Positions 54,633 through 64,000 of a stretch of 64,000 nt of DNA are shown here, in pieces. Position 1 is the first letter of the stretch. Every line of letters begins with the position of its first letter. The DNA is from Emticicia sp. BO119 (lineage in GTDB: Bacteria > Bacteroidota > Bacteroidia > Cytophagales > Spirosomataceae): positions 62,001 to 126,000 of the forward strand of contig NZ_JACETV010000010.1 in assembly GCF_013912375.1 (NCBI RefSeq). The letters are read 5' to 3'. The position numbers were made by a program, and so were the translations under genes. Under the pieces are notes generated by a model. That model did not search any database and was not told where the DNA came from. It saw only the letters and a program-made list of their open reading frames with translations.

Positions 54633-57101
54633 TTATCCATTCGCCAGCTTCTTACAGTCTTCTAATGTCAACGAGGCAGGATCCGTCCCTTTAGGTATCT
54701 TTACATTCCTTTTTCCTACTTTGATGTAAGGCCCATATTGCCCGTTTAATACCTGGATTGTTTTATCTTCAGCAAATTCTTTGATAATTTTATTACTCTC
54801 TGCTGCTTTCTTAACTTTAATAATTTCGACTGCTTTCTCAAAGTCTATCGCAGATGCATTAATGCCTTTATCGATATTATAATATTTATCTCCATGTTTT
54901 ACATAAAAACCAAATCGGCCTTTACCAATATTCACTGCTAACCCTTCAAAAATACCTAAATCTTTGGGTTGAGATAAATCACCGCTATTCCGTTTGGCTT
55001 CAATAATCTGTATGGCTCTTTCCTGATTTACAAGATAAGGATCGTCGGTTTTTTCTAAATTATAGAATTTATCATCATGTTTGATATAAGGCCCGAATTT
55101 GCCAATAGCAACTACCAGAGGCTTATCTTCAAAAAAACCTACTTCTTTTGGTAATTTAGGCATATCAAATAGGGCCAATGCGTCCTCTAAGTTAATATTG
55201 TCCACTAACTGACCCTTCAACAGACTGGCGAATATTGGTTTTTCTTCATCATTTATATCACCTAATTGTACATAAGGACCAAACTTGCCGATTTTTACCG
55301 AAACTTTTTTTCCAGTTCTTGGGTCAAACCCAAGCTCTCTCGCACCTTTGGTAGCTTTTACACCATCCGCTTGTTCTACTTTCTGGTGAAAATCTTTATA
55401 AAAGTCAGCAATCATTTTTTGCCATTCTACTTTGCCATCGGCAACTTTATCAAAATCTTTTTCGACATTGGCAGTAAAGCTATAATCAATTACATCATCA
55501 AAGTTATCCACCAGGAAATCATTTACCACTATACCGATATTGGTAGGGAATAACTTGGCTTTTTCTGTGCCAAAGGTTTCTGTTCCTGTTCTTTCTGAAA
55601 CTATATTATTTCTAAGAGAAAACTCTTTGAAGTTTCTTTCCTTGCCCGGTCTATCTTCTTTAACTACATAATTACGTTTAATGATAGTGGTGATAGTAGG
55701 CGCATATGTTGACGGACGTCCAATACCCATTTCTTCAAGCTTTTTTACCAGACTTGCCTCAGTATATCTCGCCGAAGGTTTAGAGAATCTTTCAGTTGCT
55801 TTCATTTCTGAAAGATTAAGTATTTGACCTATATTTAATGGAGGCAGCATACCTTTATTTTCTTCATCTTCATCATCGCTCGATTCAAGATAAACTTTCA
55901 AAAAACCATCAAATTTAATTACTTCGCCAGTAGCTACCAACTCCTCAGAAGTTGTTGAAATACTAATGGTTGCAATCGTTCTTTCTAATTCAGCATCTGC
56001 CATTTGAGAAGCAATCGAGCGTTTCCATATTAATTCATATAAACGCTGTTCGCTTCTATCGCCTTCAACTTTTTCAACACCAAAATCAGTTGGTCTGATA
56101 GCTTCGTGAGCTTCCTGTGCAGATTCACTTTTGGTTTTGTACTGTCTGACTTTTATATATTTTTCGCCGTAAGCATTTTCAATCTGAATCTTTGCTTTTT
56201 CAATTGCTTCACCCGAAAGATTAGTCGAGTCAGTTCTCATGTATGATATTTTACCCGATTCATAGAGTTTCTGAGCTACTGTCATGGTTTGCAAAACAGA
56301 AAATCCCAGTTTTCTTGATGCTTCCTGCTGTAAAGTGGACGTAGTAAACGGCGCTGCGGGTGATTTTTTAGCTGGTTTTACCTCTAAGTTTTTAATGGTA
56401 AAAATTGCATTGATACATTTTTCTAAAAATGCTTTAGCCTGCGCTTCAGTTTCAAAATTTTTAGGTAGTTCAGCGTTCAATACCTTGCCTTTTTCTACTA
56501 AGAATTGAGCAATTACCTTAAATGAGGATTTCGAATTATGATTATCAATTTCTCTTTCTCTTTCAACGATTAGTCTTACTGCCACAGATTGAACTCTACC
56601 TGCTGATAGATTGGTTCGTTCTCCGGTTCTGATTTTTTGCCATAATACTGGTGATAACTCAAAACCAACCAGACGATCAAGAATACGACGCGCCTGTTGG
56701 GCATTTACCAGATCCATATCAATTGTACGTGGATTCTGTATAGCCGAAGTAATAGCTTTTTTTGTGATTTCTCTAAAAACTATTCTTGGTGTTGAATCTT
56801 TCAGCCCTAAAGATTCTTTTAAGTGCCAAGAAATAGCCTCTCCTTCACGATCGTCGTCAGTTGCTAACCAGACTGTTTCAGAATCCTTAGCCAATTTCTT
56901 CAACTCATTAATTACTTTTGTCTTGTCAGAAGAAATAGCATATTTAGGTGCAAAATTTTTACCTATATCTATTCCTAACTCCTTTTCCGGTAAATCTCTT
57001 ACATGTCCGAAACTTGATTTGACTGTAAAATCTTTTCCAAGATAACCTTCAATGGTTTTTGCTTTTGCTGGGGACTCAACTATTACTAAATTCTTCGACA
57101 T
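54633..57101 (-). CDS. topA: DNA topoisomerase I
   Basis: Type IA topoisomerase relaxing negative supercoils, 822 residues. Toprim domain at the start (LVIVESPAKAKTIEGYLG, then the DDDREGEAISWHL metal motif), active-site Tyr in ISYMRTDSTNLSG, and RPSTYAPTITTIIKRNYV. From about residue 600 come four short C-terminal repeats, each centred on a GxFGPY/GRFGFY/GQYGPY segment. No Cys4 zinc ribbons, as usual in Bacteroidota. Confidence 0.97.
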   Translation of the reverse strand: MSKNLVIVESPAKAKTIEGYLGKDFTVKSSFGHVRDLPEKELGIDIGKNFAPKYAISSDKTKVINELKKLAKDSETVWLATDDDREGEAISWHLKESLGLKDSTPRIVFREITKKAITSAIQNPRTIDMDLVNAQQARRILDRLVGFELSPVLWQKIRTGERTNLSAGRVQSVAVRLIVEREREIDNHNSKSSFKVIAQFLVEKGKVLNAELPKNFETEAQAKAFLEKCINAIFTIKNLEVKPAKKSPAAPFTTSTLQQEASRKLGFSVLQTMTVAQKLYESGKISYMRTDSTNLSGEAIEKAKIQIENAYGEKYIKVRQYKTKSESAQEAHEAIRPTDFGVEKVEGDRSEQRLYELIWKRSIASQMADAELERTIATISISTTSEELVATGEVIKFDGFLKVYLESSDDEDEENKGMLPPLNIGQILNLSEMKATERFSKPSARYTEASLVKKLEEMGIGRPSTYAPTITTIIKRNYVVKEDRPGKERNFKEFSLRNNIVSERTGTETFGTEKAKLFPTNIGIVVNDFLVDNFDDVIDYSFTANVEKDFDKVADGKVEWQKMIADFYKDFHQKVEQADGVKATKGARELGFDPRTGKKVSVKIGKFGPYVQLGDINDEEKPIFASLLKGQLVDNINLEDALALFDMPKLPKEVGFFEDKPLVVAIGKFGPYIKHDDKFYNLEKTDDPYLVNQERAIQIIEAKRNSGDLSQPKDLGIFEGLAVNIGKGRFGFYVKHGDKYYNIDKGINASAIDFEKAVEIIKVKKAAESNKIIKEFAEDKTIQVLNGQYGPYIKVGKRNVKIPKGTDPASLTLEDCKKLANG

Positions 57102-59767: not shown

Positions 59768-61135
59768 TTACGGCTGAGGAAAATTCTTAGAAGCATCATC
59801 CAAAACCAATATCCAATCTTGTCCATAACCTGAACGAGGTGGGCTGAATTTTTGACTTCCTTTATTATCGACTTTATTAATTCCCTGAACCTTGCCGTTT
59901 CTTGGGTCAAACCAGTAAGCATTTAATTGCGAGCCTGAAATTTTACCTAAATTAACTGTAAAAGGCTTACCGGCTGCTGAATAAATAAAAGCATAATCTT
60001 TTCCTCTCGTAGCCTGGATACGTTCACTTGGTGCCTGATTATTTTCAACTATCAACGATTGGTCAGGTACTCTATCCAGAAAAGGACGGGATTCAATTAA
60101 TCTTCTGGCATGTTGCATTTGTTTCGCTCCTGGTAGTTCTAAGGCTTGCTGCCAGTAAGTATGTGGGCCATTAACCGCTTCTCTATTCGGAGAATACATT
60201 TGCCAGATGTCGTGGCAACCATAAGTATGCCCGAATGCTCCTGCAAAAAGGTCTAAATAAGCGTATTTGCGTACATCGTAGGCATTTGAAGTACCTAAAT
60301 CATTTGCATTGAAACAAACCGGATGGTCTTCATAAATAGGCTCTCCATCAATTACTGGTTTCACAACTGCTCTATCATACGAACCTTTGATATTATCATA
60401 TATTGGCGTATCTCTGCAATGCCCGTTCTGAAACATATTAAAATCAAACCAATCATCGGAGTGAAACCATTGGCTCGAGCCTTCTTTATTCGGTTGTGGG
60501 TGAAAAGTAATCAGTGCCATATCGTTGCCACCAATACCCTCAACAATTCCTGCCGCCATAGCTCTCCATACCTCAACATCATTAGTATTTTCCCGTGGTT
60601 GTCTGTCTCCTCCTAATATCCAGATTATATTTTTTCTGTTTTTATATCTTGTCGCTAACCATTTTCCATAAACCTTGGCATTATCCATATTAAAAACCTC
60701 CGGGCCTTTTCCCCAGCTTGATTTATTCAGTTTATCTCCCCAGGTTGGTAAAAAGCCAATTGTTAAGCCATAATCTGCCGCTCTGTCAATGATATAATCA
60801 ACATGTTTAAAATAGGTCTCATTGGGTTTAGTTGGGTCATTATTAATCAAAGGCAAATCTCCATAAGGATTCGGCACGGTTAACCCGTCAAATTCTGCCA
60901 ATGCTACAGCTTGGATAACCGTATAATTTTGAGAAGCACGTTTTTTTAGGTAATAATCGGCATCTGCTCTGTCAAGTCGGTGAAATAATTCCCATGCCGT
61001 ATCACCTAACCAGAAAAATGGCTTTCCATCCTTCATTAAAAACCGTTTATTTTCACTAACTGAGAAGGTTTGGGCTGATAAATTCAGGCCAATAAAAAAA
61101 AGTAATAAAAACAAATTAGGTCGCGTTGATTTCAT
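59768..61135 (-). CDS. Exported GH140-type (DUF4038) glycoside hydrolase, apiosidase-like
   Basis: A 455-residue secreted enzyme with a signal peptide (to LSAQ, residues 18-21). The DUF4038 TIM barrel has RFLMKDGKPFFWLGDTAWEL, DADYYLKKRASQNYTVIQAV, GLTIGFLPTWGD and NIIWILGGDRQPR; a small C-terminal beta domain ends FSPPRSGYGQDWILVLDD. GH140 members cleave apiose from pectin (RG-II), but the DUF4038 group is broader and substrate is uncertain. No SusC/D pair is adjacent. Confidence 0.85.
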   Translation of the reverse strand: MKSTRPNLFLLLFFIGLNLSAQTFSVSENKRFLMKDGKPFFWLGDTAWELFHRLDRADADYYLKKRASQNYTVIQAVALAEFDGLTVPNPYGDLPLINNDPTKPNETYFKHVDYIIDRAADYGLTIGFLPTWGDKLNKSSWGKGPEVFNMDNAKVYGKWLATRYKNRKNIIWILGGDRQPRENTNDVEVWRAMAAGIVEGIGGNDMALITFHPQPNKEGSSQWFHSDDWFDFNMFQNGHCRDTPIYDNIKGSYDRAVVKPVIDGEPIYEDHPVCFNANDLGTSNAYDVRKYAYLDLFAGAFGHTYGCHDIWQMYSPNREAVNGPHTYWQQALELPGAKQMQHARRLIESRPFLDRVPDQSLIVENNQAPSERIQATRGKDYAFIYSAAGKPFTVNLGKISGSQLNAYWFDPRNGKVQGINKVDNKGSQKFSPPRSGYGQDWILVLDDASKNFPQP

Positions 61136-61216
61136 TTTTGGTAGAAATGCTTGGTTAAATATGCATACAAACTAATGAAAAAAACCGATAAAATGTAATA
61201 TTTAAAGGATTTATTA

Positions 61217-61255
61217 TAAAAAAAAGCCGATAATCCCAGAGAGGGGCTTATCGGC
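61217..61255 (-). terminator. Intrinsic terminator of the ATP-grasp gene
   Basis: GCCGATAA (61226-61233) pairs with TTATCGGC (61248-61255), plus an inner CCC/GGG. On the minus strand a run of nine T (61225-61217) follows. It marks the end of the right-edge operon. Confidence 0.88.
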
Positions 61256-61277
61256 CAAAGCATTATTAATTTAAATT

Positions 61278-62474
61278 TTAATCTTCAAAAAATCCGCAAC
61301 TGCCACCAACCCAATCAAAGTTCTTATTGAAGTTGACACCTATCATTTCTCCGCGACTCAACCTGGCAAGATTAGTAACCAAAGTTGGCCGAGGTGCTGA
61401 GTCTTCCCAGGCAAACAACAGTCTGATTTCAGTTTTTATCAGGTTACCCTCAGGGTCTTCAATAATGGGTTCATATTTTACCTTACGTTGTAGCAGGAAA
61501 TTTTCTTTATCTTCAATGGCATCTAAATCTTCTTTTGTAAAATTAAGTTTTACCCCACTTCCGGCAAACGAAAACAAAGGTTTCAGTACATAATTTTCTA
61601 AATCGATAGGATATCCCCTCAGTTCTGATAAATACTCACTCTTAGGCACAAACGGACTGTTGAGCAGTGGCAAGGTGAACTTGCTGATTCTGAAAAACCA
61701 GTTAGGGTGTGTTACCCATTTTACATCAACATCATCAGTCAACTTAAATTCTGTTTCTAAATCAGGGAAATTCTGCAATAAATCATCAAAAATCAATCGG
61801 TTGTAAATTCGTTTAATCTCAATTTTTCGGCCTTCTTTCTCATAATAAAGCTTTCGGCCTTCTTTTTTTATTTTAGTATAGCAAACAGGTGTAATCCCCC
61901 ATAATTGCTTGGTAATTTCAAAATCTAACCGTGTCTTTTGTTTTTCCGGGTAAATTTCCAATAGAATTACATTCTCTGAATTTTCACCACCAAGCAAGAC
62001 TTTCTTCATATACTCTACATAACTTGCCATATTAAGTCGATTAAAGTACTGATTAAAATTCTTTGGATGATAAAAGAACTTCTTGTACTTCTGACCGATA
62101 TACCATTGATAGCCAAACAAAGATGGGAAACCCTGTAATTCAATTAATTGCGGGCTTAATTCTCCTTTTTCGTCACGAGTGACGGCAAAATCAATAGCTA
62201 AAAAATTCGGATGGCTATCTTCATTAGGTACTATCTGGTTAATCGGAATCGCCCTTTCAGTTTTAGATTTAAAATCATCTTTCAACAGTGTATCAATTAT
62301 ATCGTTGCAAGCCTGTAGTAGCTTGATCTTGAGCAATTGAGGTACAAAAACCGGAGTTTCTGCTACACGAAAATCTAATTGAGATGGGAAATCCTTTTCA
62401 ATTTCTGCTAATAGAGCCTTATATTTTTCTGGAGAAAAACTTTCGTTGAATTGATGACGGATTTCGGGTATCAT
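61278..62474 (-). CDS. ATP-grasp ligase (glutathione synthetase-like), function unknown
   Basis: Probable ATP-dependent carboxylate-amine ligase, 398 residues from the ATG at 62474; the longer reading to 62528 would need a TTG start. LAIDFAVTRDEKGELSPQLI with ELQGFPSLFGYQ, the phosphate-binding-like FSFAGSGVKLNF, and the C-terminal metal region with TEIRLLFAWEDSAPRP and TNLARLSRGEMIGVNFNKNF resemble ATP-grasp enzymes, though sequence similarity to named families is low. Last gene of a run with a class-I amidotransferase and a GCS2-type ligase. Expected role: adding an amino acid or amine to a gamma-glutamyl-type product. Family call is moderately sure; substrate unknown. Confidence 0.7.
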   Translation of the reverse strand: MIPEIRHQFNESFSPEKYKALLAEIEKDFPSQLDFRVAETPVFVPQLLKIKLLQACNDIIDTLLKDDFKSKTERAIPINQIVPNEDSHPNFLAIDFAVTRDEKGELSPQLIELQGFPSLFGYQWYIGQKYKKFFYHPKNFNQYFNRLNMASYVEYMKKVLLGGENSENVILLEIYPEKQKTRLDFEITKQLWGITPVCYTKIKKEGRKLYYEKEGRKIEIKRIYNRLIFDDLLQNFPDLETEFKLTDDVDVKWVTHPNWFFRISKFTLPLLNSPFVPKSEYLSELRGYPIDLENYVLKPLFSFAGSGVKLNFTKEDLDAIEDKENFLLQRKVKYEPIIEDPEGNLIKTEIRLLFAWEDSAPRPTLVTNLARLSRGEMIGVNFNKNFDWVGGSCGFFED

Positions 62475-62587
62475 ATTATGAAAGGAATTTAATGTGATGA
62501 ATACCACCAGCGTTAGAAGAAAATACAATAAAAAGATAATCTATCAAATAAATAAGGTTTGCAATTTCCCCAGACTCGATACTTATT

Positions 62588-63397
62588 TTATGCCAGTTCT
62601 AAGATGCGCTCAGCAGCATTTCTTAAAAAAGTAGGGATAACCACAGATTCGGTCAGCATAATTTTATCAGGGTCGTCTAAACGTTCAATCATTTCCTCAT
62701 ATTTTTCAGTACCATATTCCTTAATGACTGCCAACATCTTTTCTTCCTGCTTGAAATACCGCATCATACCTTCAGAGTCAGCTTCGGGATGAAATTGAGT
62801 TCCAAAGACTTCATCAGAGAATCGGATAGCCATGATCGCACGCTCTAAAGGAACATAGGGTCTGACTTTCTCCAGACATAAAACTTTGGCTCCGAATCCA
62901 GTGATTTTATTCCAGTTTGGTTGAATTAATTGATAGTCTCTTGAATCAACGGCATAGAAGATTTCAGGTAATTTTTCGAAGAAAGGCTCATTGTTACCCT
63001 CTTCTGTACGATGAATTGGCATTACTCCAAAAGAAGTGGATCTTCTTTTGCAAACATTCCCGAATCCTAAATGATGGCTGGCTATCTGGAAAGAATGGCA
63101 TATCAGGAAAAGGTACTTCTTAACCTCATTTAGTTGGTTATATTCAAAGATACTATCTACAAAATCATTAAATTGTTTCTCCCAAAGATTACCTTCCGGT
63201 AATGGATTGCCAGGGCCTCCGGTAGAAATAAAAATCTGATATTTATTAATATCAGGAATTTCGTTTTTTTGCCTTACATCAAAAATATCATAGCTGCCAA
63301 CTCCTTGTTCAGACAAAAACTGATTACATAACATCTTTATACAGCGCATACCTTCGTTTGGTCGGCCATCGTACATATCTAAAATTGCAATATTCAT
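62588..63397 (-). CDS. Stand-alone class-I glutamine amidotransferase-like protein
   Basis: A 269-residue protein with the GATase1 flavodoxin-like fold, started at the ATG at 63397 (a GTG two codons earlier is possible). It shows FISTGGPGNPLPEGNLWEKQ, the nucleophile Cys in LFLICHSFQIASHHLGFG, and the catalytic His-Glu in GTQFHPEADSEGM, so the Cys-His-Glu triad is intact. It is not fused to a synthetase, so it may supply ammonia to a partner, or act as a gamma-glutamyl hydrolase like other free-standing members. It lies between the GCS2-like and ATP-grasp genes. Confidence 0.82.
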   Translation of the reverse strand: MNIAILDMYDGRPNEGMRCIKMLCNQFLSEQGVGSYDIFDVRQKNEIPDINKYQIFISTGGPGNPLPEGNLWEKQFNDFVDSIFEYNQLNEVKKYLFLICHSFQIASHHLGFGNVCKRRSTSFGVMPIHRTEEGNNEPFFEKLPEIFYAVDSRDYQLIQPNWNKITGFGAKVLCLEKVRPYVPLERAIMAIRFSDEVFGTQFHPEADSEGMMRYFKQEEKMLAVIKEYGTEKYEEMIERLDDPDKIMLTESVVIPTFLRNAAERILELA

Positions 63398-63407
63398 AAA
63401 CACTCAG

Positions 63408-63534
63408 GCTTGCCTAAATCGGCAAGGCATAAATTAGTAAAATTAACACAAATTTAATGTAAATTTGTGGATTCGGCTAAAAAACTACGAGTTAAACTAA
63501 TAATCCTGCAAGGACCAGACATGCAGGATTAGTT
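63408..63534 (-). promoter_or_regulatory. Three hairpins in the spacer between the GCS2-like and amidotransferase genes
   Basis: Within the 183-base spacer: CTTGCC/GGCAAG just before the amidotransferase start; a perfect 9-bp hairpin CACAAATTT-N5-AAATTTGTG (63447-63469); and a bulged 13-bp stem (63495-63510 with 63522-63534, ATCCTGCA/TGCAGGAT core). The last may be a weak terminator or processing site after the GCS2-like gene; the others could control translation of the amidotransferase. No metabolite-riboswitch consensus was recognised. Confidence 0.4.
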
Positions 63535-63580
63535 AAACCTAAAAGTATTTAACAAAAATATCTGGGTTTGTAGTTCATAT

Positions 63581-64000
63581 TTATAGCCCGATTTTAGTCT
63601 CTGAAACAATATAATCAACCACTGTTTTCAGGCTCTTGGTTTCTTCAAATACTTTCAACTGTCTGTCAGCACCACTACCCATTCTGAGTATTTCATGAAT
63701 ATATTCCACCTCTTTGCGGCTTCCTAATTCATCTAAAACATCATCAACAAACTCCATGAGTTCTTCCGCAAGGTAAGAATATGGCACCTCAACCTCTTTC
63801 CCAAAATCAATCAGATTACCATGAATACCATATCTTGCCGCTCGCCATTTATTTTCACTGATAAGCATTCTGTGGTAAGTACGGAAACTCAGATTCTGTT
63901 GATGTAATTTATGAATTTTTGCAATAATGGCTTGCATCAGAGCAGCCAGGCAAATGGTTTCATCAACCCTCATCGGAATATCGCATATTCTGAATTCGAC
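63581..64000 (-). CDS. GCS2-type carboxylate-amine ligase (YbdK/glutamate-cysteine ligase-like), C-terminal part
   Basis: The last 139 residues of a protein whose N-terminus lies beyond the window. The frame is open to the edge and begins VEFRICDIPMRVDETICLAA, followed by RMLISENKWRAARYGIHGNL and VPYSYLAEELMEFVDDVLDE. These match the end of the GCS2 family (weak gamma-glutamylcysteine ligases, YbdK). Members join the gamma-carboxyl of glutamate to an amino compound using ATP. Position upstream of a class-I amidotransferase and an ATP-grasp ligase suggests a small-peptide or amide pathway. Confidence 0.85.
   Translation of the reverse strand, partial: VEFRICDIPMRVDETICLAALMQAIIAKIHKLHQQNLSFRTYHRMLISENKWRAARYGIHGNLIDFGKEVEVPYSYLAEELMEFVDDVLDELGSRKEVEYIHEILRMGSGADRQLKVFEETKSLKTVVDYIVSETKIGL

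Follow-up and report, generated by a model that had tools for sequence, protein, structure and literature searches.

A conserved gene set of Bacteroidota with a possible role in building a small gamma-glutamyl-type peptide

The window (the whole stretch of 64,000 nucleotides from Emticicia sp. BO119 that was analyzed) ends within a set of genes that behaves as a unit among the Bacteroidota. The set encodes a GCS2 carboxylate-amine ligase (GCS2), a protein with the predicted fold of eukaryotic glutathione synthetases (A1), a RimK-like ATP-grasp ligase (A2), a protein of the class-I glutamine amidotransferase fold (GAT), and two PF00756 esterases (EST and EST2). Together these may form a conserved pathway for assembling and processing a small gamma-glutamyl-type peptide or peptide-amide other than the main thiol, a reading that we favor only tentatively.

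The gene run at the window edge

A previous reading of the sequence alone (hereafter, the sequence-only reading) had described a run of three co-directional genes at this edge. All three are real and are located on the minus strand, but the run is longer than was proposed: extension past position 64000 recovered the rest of GCS2, followed by A2 and EST on the same strand and by EST2 in divergent orientation, giving at least five same-strand genes and a divergent sixth. The features are as follows, where L002 is the stretch beyond the window edge and position p of L002 corresponds to window position 56000+p.

61215..61262, minus strand: intrinsic terminator after A1 (folded stretch), -18 kcal/mol, z -4.1 against shuffles
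61278..62474, minus strand: A1, predicted ATP-grasp ligase of the eukaryotic glutathione-synthetase/GspS/YgiC type, 398 aa, no Pfam or NCBIfam family
62588..63397, minus strand: GAT, class-I glutamine-amidotransferase-fold protein, 269 aa, possibly gamma-glutamyl peptidase-like
63581..64000, minus strand: GCS2 carboxylate-amine ligase (PRK13515/YbdK type), C-terminal 139 aa in the window
L002:7581-8678, minus strand: GCS2, whole gene, 365 aa, open past the window edge
L002:8765-9865, minus strand: A2, RimK-like ATP-grasp ligase, 366 aa, past the window edge
L002:9960-10679, minus strand: EST, PF00756 esterase (alpha/beta hydrolase), 239 aa, past the window edge
L002:10964-11857, plus strand: EST2, divergent PF00756 esterase, 297 aa, past the window edge

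A1 runs from an ATG at 62474 to a stop at 61278, and its listed TTG start at 62528 lies upstream of the start that is common to its homologs; GAT runs from an ATG at 63397 to a stop at 62588. That a strong terminator ends the run, as had been claimed, is supported by the hairpin 3' of A1 and the run of T that follows it. This terminator was absent from the output of a simple terminator scanner, probably due to the 8-base loop limit of that program. The gaps among the five same-strand genes of the window locus measure 86-183 bases, and a single transcript for the run therefore cannot be taken for granted; the same gaps in five other loci range from a 43-base overlap to a 120-base gap.

Distribution and co-inheritance of the set

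A total of 296 Bacteroidota genomes were sampled, with one search per gene (E<=1e-3 for A1; E<=1e-20 for A2, GAT, GCS2, and EST) and the results combined; a 99-residue A1 fragment with stops in one genome (G266, E 3.8e-5) was left out of the A1 set. It should be noted that all counts from this sample are raw and ignore kinship. A1 was detected in 92 genomes, A2 in 108, GAT in 70, GCS2 in 103, and EST in 125, and all five were detected in 50. A1 and A2 were found together in 89 genomes, leaving three with A1 and no A2, and the steadiest pair is A2 and EST, with EST present in 105 of the 108 A2-encoding genomes. A further 33 of the 92 A1-encoding genomes carry A1, A2, GCS2, and EST but have no GAT match at E<=1e-20.

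Comparison across the phylum revealed a conserved gene order. The order EST-A2-GCS2-GAT-A1, with each start at most 6 kb from the next, was found in 26 of the 296 genomes (strand is not part of this count), and the same order on one strand was found in 35 of the best 80 of at least 587 confirmed loci, five of the 35 having extra ORFs between the genes. Contig ends truncate several of the remaining loci among these best 80. In 33 of the 35 one-strand loci, EST2 lies immediately upstream in divergent orientation, and no extra conserved gene was seen inside the set in the best 80 of at least 587 loci (ORFs of at least 120 aa). Genera represented among these best 80 loci include Larkinella, Spirosoma, Hymenobacter, Dyadobacter, Runella, Lacihabitans, Chitinophaga, and Lewinella. 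Searches of a plasmid collection with A1, A2, and GAT gave no match.

The association is more than one of shared position, since 23 of the 296 genomes encode A1, A2, GCS2, and EST with no pair of starts within 6 kb of each other. Many of these are multi-contig drafts, but the genes are likewise scattered in G059 and G043, each a single contig (G043 was tallied separately due to its two EST places). Coupling within the set is not uniform: EST occurs without the rest of the set in 20 genomes and GCS2 in nine, GAT occurs without GCS2 in 12 genomes and GCS2 without GAT in 45, and GAT, A2, and EST are found with no GCS2 in 12. A family table was compiled for 59 genomes of the window's class that carry family tags, in which genomes without matches are included only in part. 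Each of five families (f2, f3, f4, f5, and f7) includes both genomes with the complete five-gene complement and genomes that lack all of it. In family f8, four genomes encode A1, A2, GAT, and EST and no GCS2, and one encodes none of the set. Other departures are one f7 genome with A1, GCS2, and GAT only and one f5 genome with only a distant A2 match.

A total of 19 sampled genomes encode A2 without A1, 15 of them with GAT and EST and four without GAT. In all 15, a different protein of about 450-480 aa adjoins A2; it is encoded between A2 and GAT in 14, and the other genome (G290) has GAT on another contig. When 59 of the 296 genomes were searched for this stand-in protein, it was confined to those 15; the 44 negative genomes comprised the four with A2 and no GAT, 20 with A1, and 20 with neither A1 nor A2. 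This pattern suggests that A1 and the stand-in act as alternative ligases at one step. The stand-in resembles the permuted ATP-grasp ligases only weakly: a domain scan of two copies revealed that one touches CP_ATPgrasp_2 below the cut-off (20.9 versus 32 bits) and that the other matches nothing, and a profile comparison with A1 was weak (hhalign probability 34%, E 4e-4, with three sequences on one side). The two are nonetheless likely to be related, because five of 51 A1 homologs weakly match the same CP_ATPgrasp_2 family and because of the pattern in which one protein is exchanged for the other.

Family membership and predicted folds

GCS2 (P0004) is a clear member, by sequence, of the YbdK/PRK13515 carboxylate-amine ligases, scoring 559 bits against PRK13515 (curated cut-off, 371) and 216.5 bits against PF04107 and matching YbdK in the PDB (E 1.6e-50). 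YbdK is not known to belong to such a gene set.

For A1, the sequence-only reading had noted a resemblance to no named synthetase. This holds at the level of families, as the window protein matched none in Pfam or NCBIfam, but not at the level of fold. An AlphaFold2 model built from 51 sequences (pLDDT 93.3, pTM 0.92) has the predicted ATP-grasp ligase fold of the eukaryotic glutathione-synthetase/GspS type, in agreement with the fold class first proposed for this protein. Its PDB matches at E<=0.001 number 31, every one of the eukaryotic glutathione-synthetase/YgiC type and none of another fold. These include the glutathione synthetases of yeast (E 4.5e-14), human, potato, and trypanosome, the homoglutathione synthetase of soybean (E 6.5e-11), nematode glutathione-synthetase-like effectors, trypanothione synthetase, YgiC (E 1.1e-11) and YjfC, a putative glutathionylspermidine synthase, and the E-64 ligase Cp1B. 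Enzymes of the eukaryotic glutathione-synthetase/GspS type are permuted ATP-grasp ligases. The predicted fold of A1 is like that of eukaryotic glutathione synthetase, glutathionylspermidine synthetase, YgiC/YjfC, and Cp1B, yet the matches are distant (TM-scores of 0.47-0.62 by query length, rmsd of 6.0-11.5), with only 9-16% identity in the structural alignments and no Pfam match for A1. By sequence profile, YgiC is the only PDB match of A1 at E<=1 (E 0.025, not significant), and 11 of the 51 A1 homologs weakly match GSP_synth (best, 9.4e-4). Eight residues (D95, E112, Q114, K298, G305, G307, E349, and R371) are invariant in alignments of 23 and 51 sequences; D95, E112, and Q114 are putative metal ligands, by analogy to GspS.

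A2 falls below the curated RimK-family cut-off (29.5 bits against TIGR00768, cut-off 143.4) and below that of R2K_2 (21.7 bits, cut-off 26.2), and its profile match to D-Ala ligase (E 1.6e-4) points to an ATP-grasp protein. EST and EST2 both match PF00756, and residues S117, D188, and H218 of EST are invariant in 14 sequences.

Membership of GAT in the class-I glutamine amidotransferases is indicated by its fold (model pLDDT 94.6), by its score against PF00117 (31.3 bits, over the cut-off of 22.8), and by its Cys-His-Glu triad. The triad had been described as intact, and Cys100, His203, and Glu205 are indeed invariant in 16 of 16 and in 44 of 44 aligned sequences. The usual nucleophile motif of class-I amidotransferases is C-x-G; that of GAT is C-x-S, with C100 and S102 invariant in 44 sequences. 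The solved structure nearest to the GAT model is, by a small lead, Arabidopsis gamma-glutamyl peptidase 1 (GGP1; E 2.3e-13), to which GAT is only 18-19% identical, with SMU.1228c (5.4e-13), TM1158 (7.1e-12), and the homoserine O-succinyltransferase MetA (2.9e-11) next, such that homoserine O-succinyltransferase and amidotransferases are close behind. MetA is also the best PDB match of the GAT sequence profile (E 2.9e-5) and has an F-Y/F-A-V-x-S-R stretch in common with GAT. Among viral structures, the best match is a giant-virus amidotransferase, which is uninformative. Structure and profile therefore speak, by a modest margin, for an enzyme that would handle an acyl- or gamma-glutamyl-enzyme rather than for one that donates ammonia. 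GGP1 cuts gamma-Glu off glutathione conjugates (PMC6243137). The sequence-only reading had left GAT a choice between donating ammonia and trimming a gamma-glutamyl product; its likeness to the peptidase favors trimming by a small margin and makes ammonia donation the less favored of the two.

Possible chemistry, alternatives, and significance

From the gene content, the conservation of the unit, the predicted folds, and the conserved catalytic residues, we infer an order of steps, their substrates, and a product in outline. GCS2 would link the gamma-carboxyl of glutamate to an amine or amino acid, after which A2 (RimK-like) and A1 (glutathione-synthetase-like) would add two more units, each addition presumably via an acyl-phosphate made with ATP. 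GAT, as a gamma-glutamyl peptidase-like thiol enzyme, would take off the gamma-glutamyl group once it is not needed; the group may be a protecting or activating handle, or its removal by GAT may represent turnover. EST and EST2 may hydrolyze a bond in the substrate or product, be it an ester, a thioester, or an amide.

The main difficulty for this scheme is that GCS2 and GAT are only loosely coupled. As each occurs without the other (GAT in 12 genomes, GCS2 in 45), GAT need not act on a GCS2 product; it may belong to a different step, or gamma-glutamyl groups may also come from other donors. The involvement of a gamma-glutamyl pathway, as the sequence-only reading had it, draws support from the clear family membership of GCS2 and is called into question by the four f8 genomes, all of which keep A1, A2, GAT, and EST without GCS2; the 12 genomes with GAT, A2, and EST but no GCS2 limit the reading as well. 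Gamma-glutamyl chemistry is therefore not proven.

A glutathione-like pathway had also been proposed. The pairing of GCS2 with a ligase of the predicted eukaryotic glutathione-synthetase fold is consistent with this, whereas its extension to the main thiol is weakened by the distribution of thiol genes. Of the 296 genomes, 80 were searched for PF10079 (BshC) and PF02955 (glutathione synthetase), half of them (40) carrying A1 and A2 and half (40) carrying neither. The BshC family was found in 39 of the 40 genomes with the set (the exception being G237) and in 40 of the 40 without it, 79 of 80 overall, and the window's genome has it. PF02955 matched in 14 of the 40 genomes that carry the set and in 21 of the 40 that do not, at values below 1e-50 in only three of these 35, and gave no match in the window's genome. 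Bacillithiol genes are documented in Bacteroidetes, according to an excerpt of PMC6282198. Since BshC is present with or without the set, the set would add to the main thiol and is no substitute for it, and replacement of glutathione or bacillithiol as the main role was rejected on this co-distribution in the 80 genomes.

Other products are conceivable. An unlikely one is a peptide-amine (polyamine-like) conjugate, where A1, acting like YgiC or glutathionylspermidine synthetase, would cap a gamma-glutamyl dipeptide with an amine to give an analog of glutathionylspermidine. The fold matches of A1 include YgiC and YjfC as well as trypanothione synthetase and a putative glutathionylspermidine synthase, the weak GSP_synth matches of its homologs and its sole sequence-profile match, YgiC, point the same way, and peptide-spermidine ligase activity of YgiC and YjfC is named in the title of Pederick et al. 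2023 (as given in the reference list of PMC12568646). Against this, yeast glutathione synthetase ranks above YgiC among the fold matches, and the YgiC sequence match is not significant. A true glutathione analog, that is, a new low-molecular-weight thiol made beside bacillithiol, is very unlikely: GCS2 and a ligase of the predicted eukaryotic glutathione-synthetase fold do recall the two-step logic of glutathione synthesis, a gamma-glutamyl peptidase-like GAT would suit glutathione turnover, and the window's genome lacks a PF02955 match, but the ubiquity of BshC leaves no gap in thiol supply to fill, A2 and two esterases do not fit a two-step thiol pathway, and family f8 keeps the rest of the set without GCS2.

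It is still less probable that GAT donates ammonia and that one of the ATP-grasp ligases forms a carboxamide on the product. The class-I amidotransferase fold and complete triad would suit such a role; nevertheless, the 33 of 92 A1-encoding genomes with A1, A2, GCS2, and EST but no GAT (E<=1e-20) suggest that the ligases do not need GAT, and both the C-x-S motif in place of the usual C-x-G and the gamma-glutamyl peptidase as nearest structure argue against it. Least probable of all is that the ligases act on a protein or a storage polymer, as in peptide tagging or cyanophycin-like metabolism, instead of on a free small molecule. Some RimK-like and permuted ATP-grasp ligases do modify proteins, and a Mur-ligase plus ATP-grasp protein adjoins the set in locus L035, but this neighbor was noticed in one genus only (G277 and G210), and no extra conserved gene was seen inside the set in the best 80 of at least 587 loci (ORFs of at least 120 aa). 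Returning to the preferred pathway for a small gamma-glutamyl-type peptide or peptide-amide, a more specific and rather doubtful version of it is a widespread Bacteroidota pathway to a hitherto unseen cofactor, a gamma-glutamyl tripeptide or peptide-amide. The pathway would be a bacterial copy of the way eukaryotes handle glutathione, with a gamma-glutamyl ligase, a second ligase of the eukaryotic glutathione-synthetase fold, and a gamma-glutamyl peptidase, to which a third ligase and two esterases would have been added, and which would exist in two interchangeable versions differing in the permuted ATP-grasp ligase.

A search of the literature by title or start of abstract returned no description of the five- or six-gene set; the 2009 amidoligase survey of Iyer et al., which would be the likeliest place for a mention of it, lies outside that scope. 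A partly comparable system is outlined in an excerpt of PMC2588565, where proteobacterial ligases related to GCS2 and of similar size adjoin amidotransferase-like thiol peptidases and are predicted to make glutathione or related peptides. That system has the same pairing of ligase and thiol peptidase as GCS2 and GAT but differs in its ligase family and phylum, and the excerpt names no ATP-grasp ligases or esterases beside it (PMC2588565).

If the pathway proposed here is real, roughly one in three of the species sampled from the phylum (A1 in 92 of 296) would carry an undescribed small-molecule pathway. Some carriers are culturable (Spirosoma, Dyadobacter, Hymenobacter, and Chitinophaga, among the best 80 of at least 587 loci), and the product could thus be found by single gene deletions coupled to mass spectrometry. 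The pathway would also bear on the history of the eukaryotic-type glutathione synthetase, the predicted fold of which is here tied to a bacterial GCS2 ligase.

The set in the window's genome

Past the intrinsic terminator of A1, the glutathione-synthetase-type ATP-grasp ligase gene, the first gene on the same strand encodes an apiosidase-like glycoside hydrolase, which lies outside the set of same-strand genes A1, A2, GCS2, GAT and EST.

Window 59768-61135, minus strand: apiosidase-like glycoside hydrolase; carries a putative collagen-binding domain

A2, the RimK-like ATP-grasp ligase (L002:8765-9865), ends in a low-complexity C-terminal tail rich in Ala, Lys and Pro; the tail varies in length and some homologues are without it.

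Enzymes neighbouring A1 in other genomes

GCS2 (carboxylate-amine ligase) and A1 flank a peptidase M29-like protein in two loci.

L046:5285-6304, plus strand: peptidase M29-like protein between GCS2 and A1
L067:3348-4367, minus strand: peptidase M29-like protein between GCS2 and A1

Among 20 loci drawn mostly from genomes with a dispersed set, A1 is adjoined by an amidohydrolase in six (L053-L056, L059 and L060), and the two of these six that were scanned both matched Amidohydro_3. One further locus carries, a few hundred bases beyond the end of A1, a protein that is perhaps of the cyanophycin-synthetase type, and a similar PF02955 match lies approximately 3 kb from A1 in a genome of the same genus (G210).

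L035:8558-10474, minus strand: Mur-ligase plus ATP-grasp protein

Symporters joined to or beside A1

In G125 (L069, L022), A1 and an upstream sodium:solute symporter (PF00474) form one in-frame fusion protein of 867 aa; in G133 (L072), a genome of the same family, the symporter adjoins A1.

L069:637-3237, plus strand: symporter-A1 fusion, PF00474 (G125)
L072:3487-4869, minus strand: sodium:solute symporter beside A1, PF00474 (G133)

In G272 (L030), the PF00474 match is split into two pieces. Symporters fused to or adjoining A1 may hint at import of a substrate.
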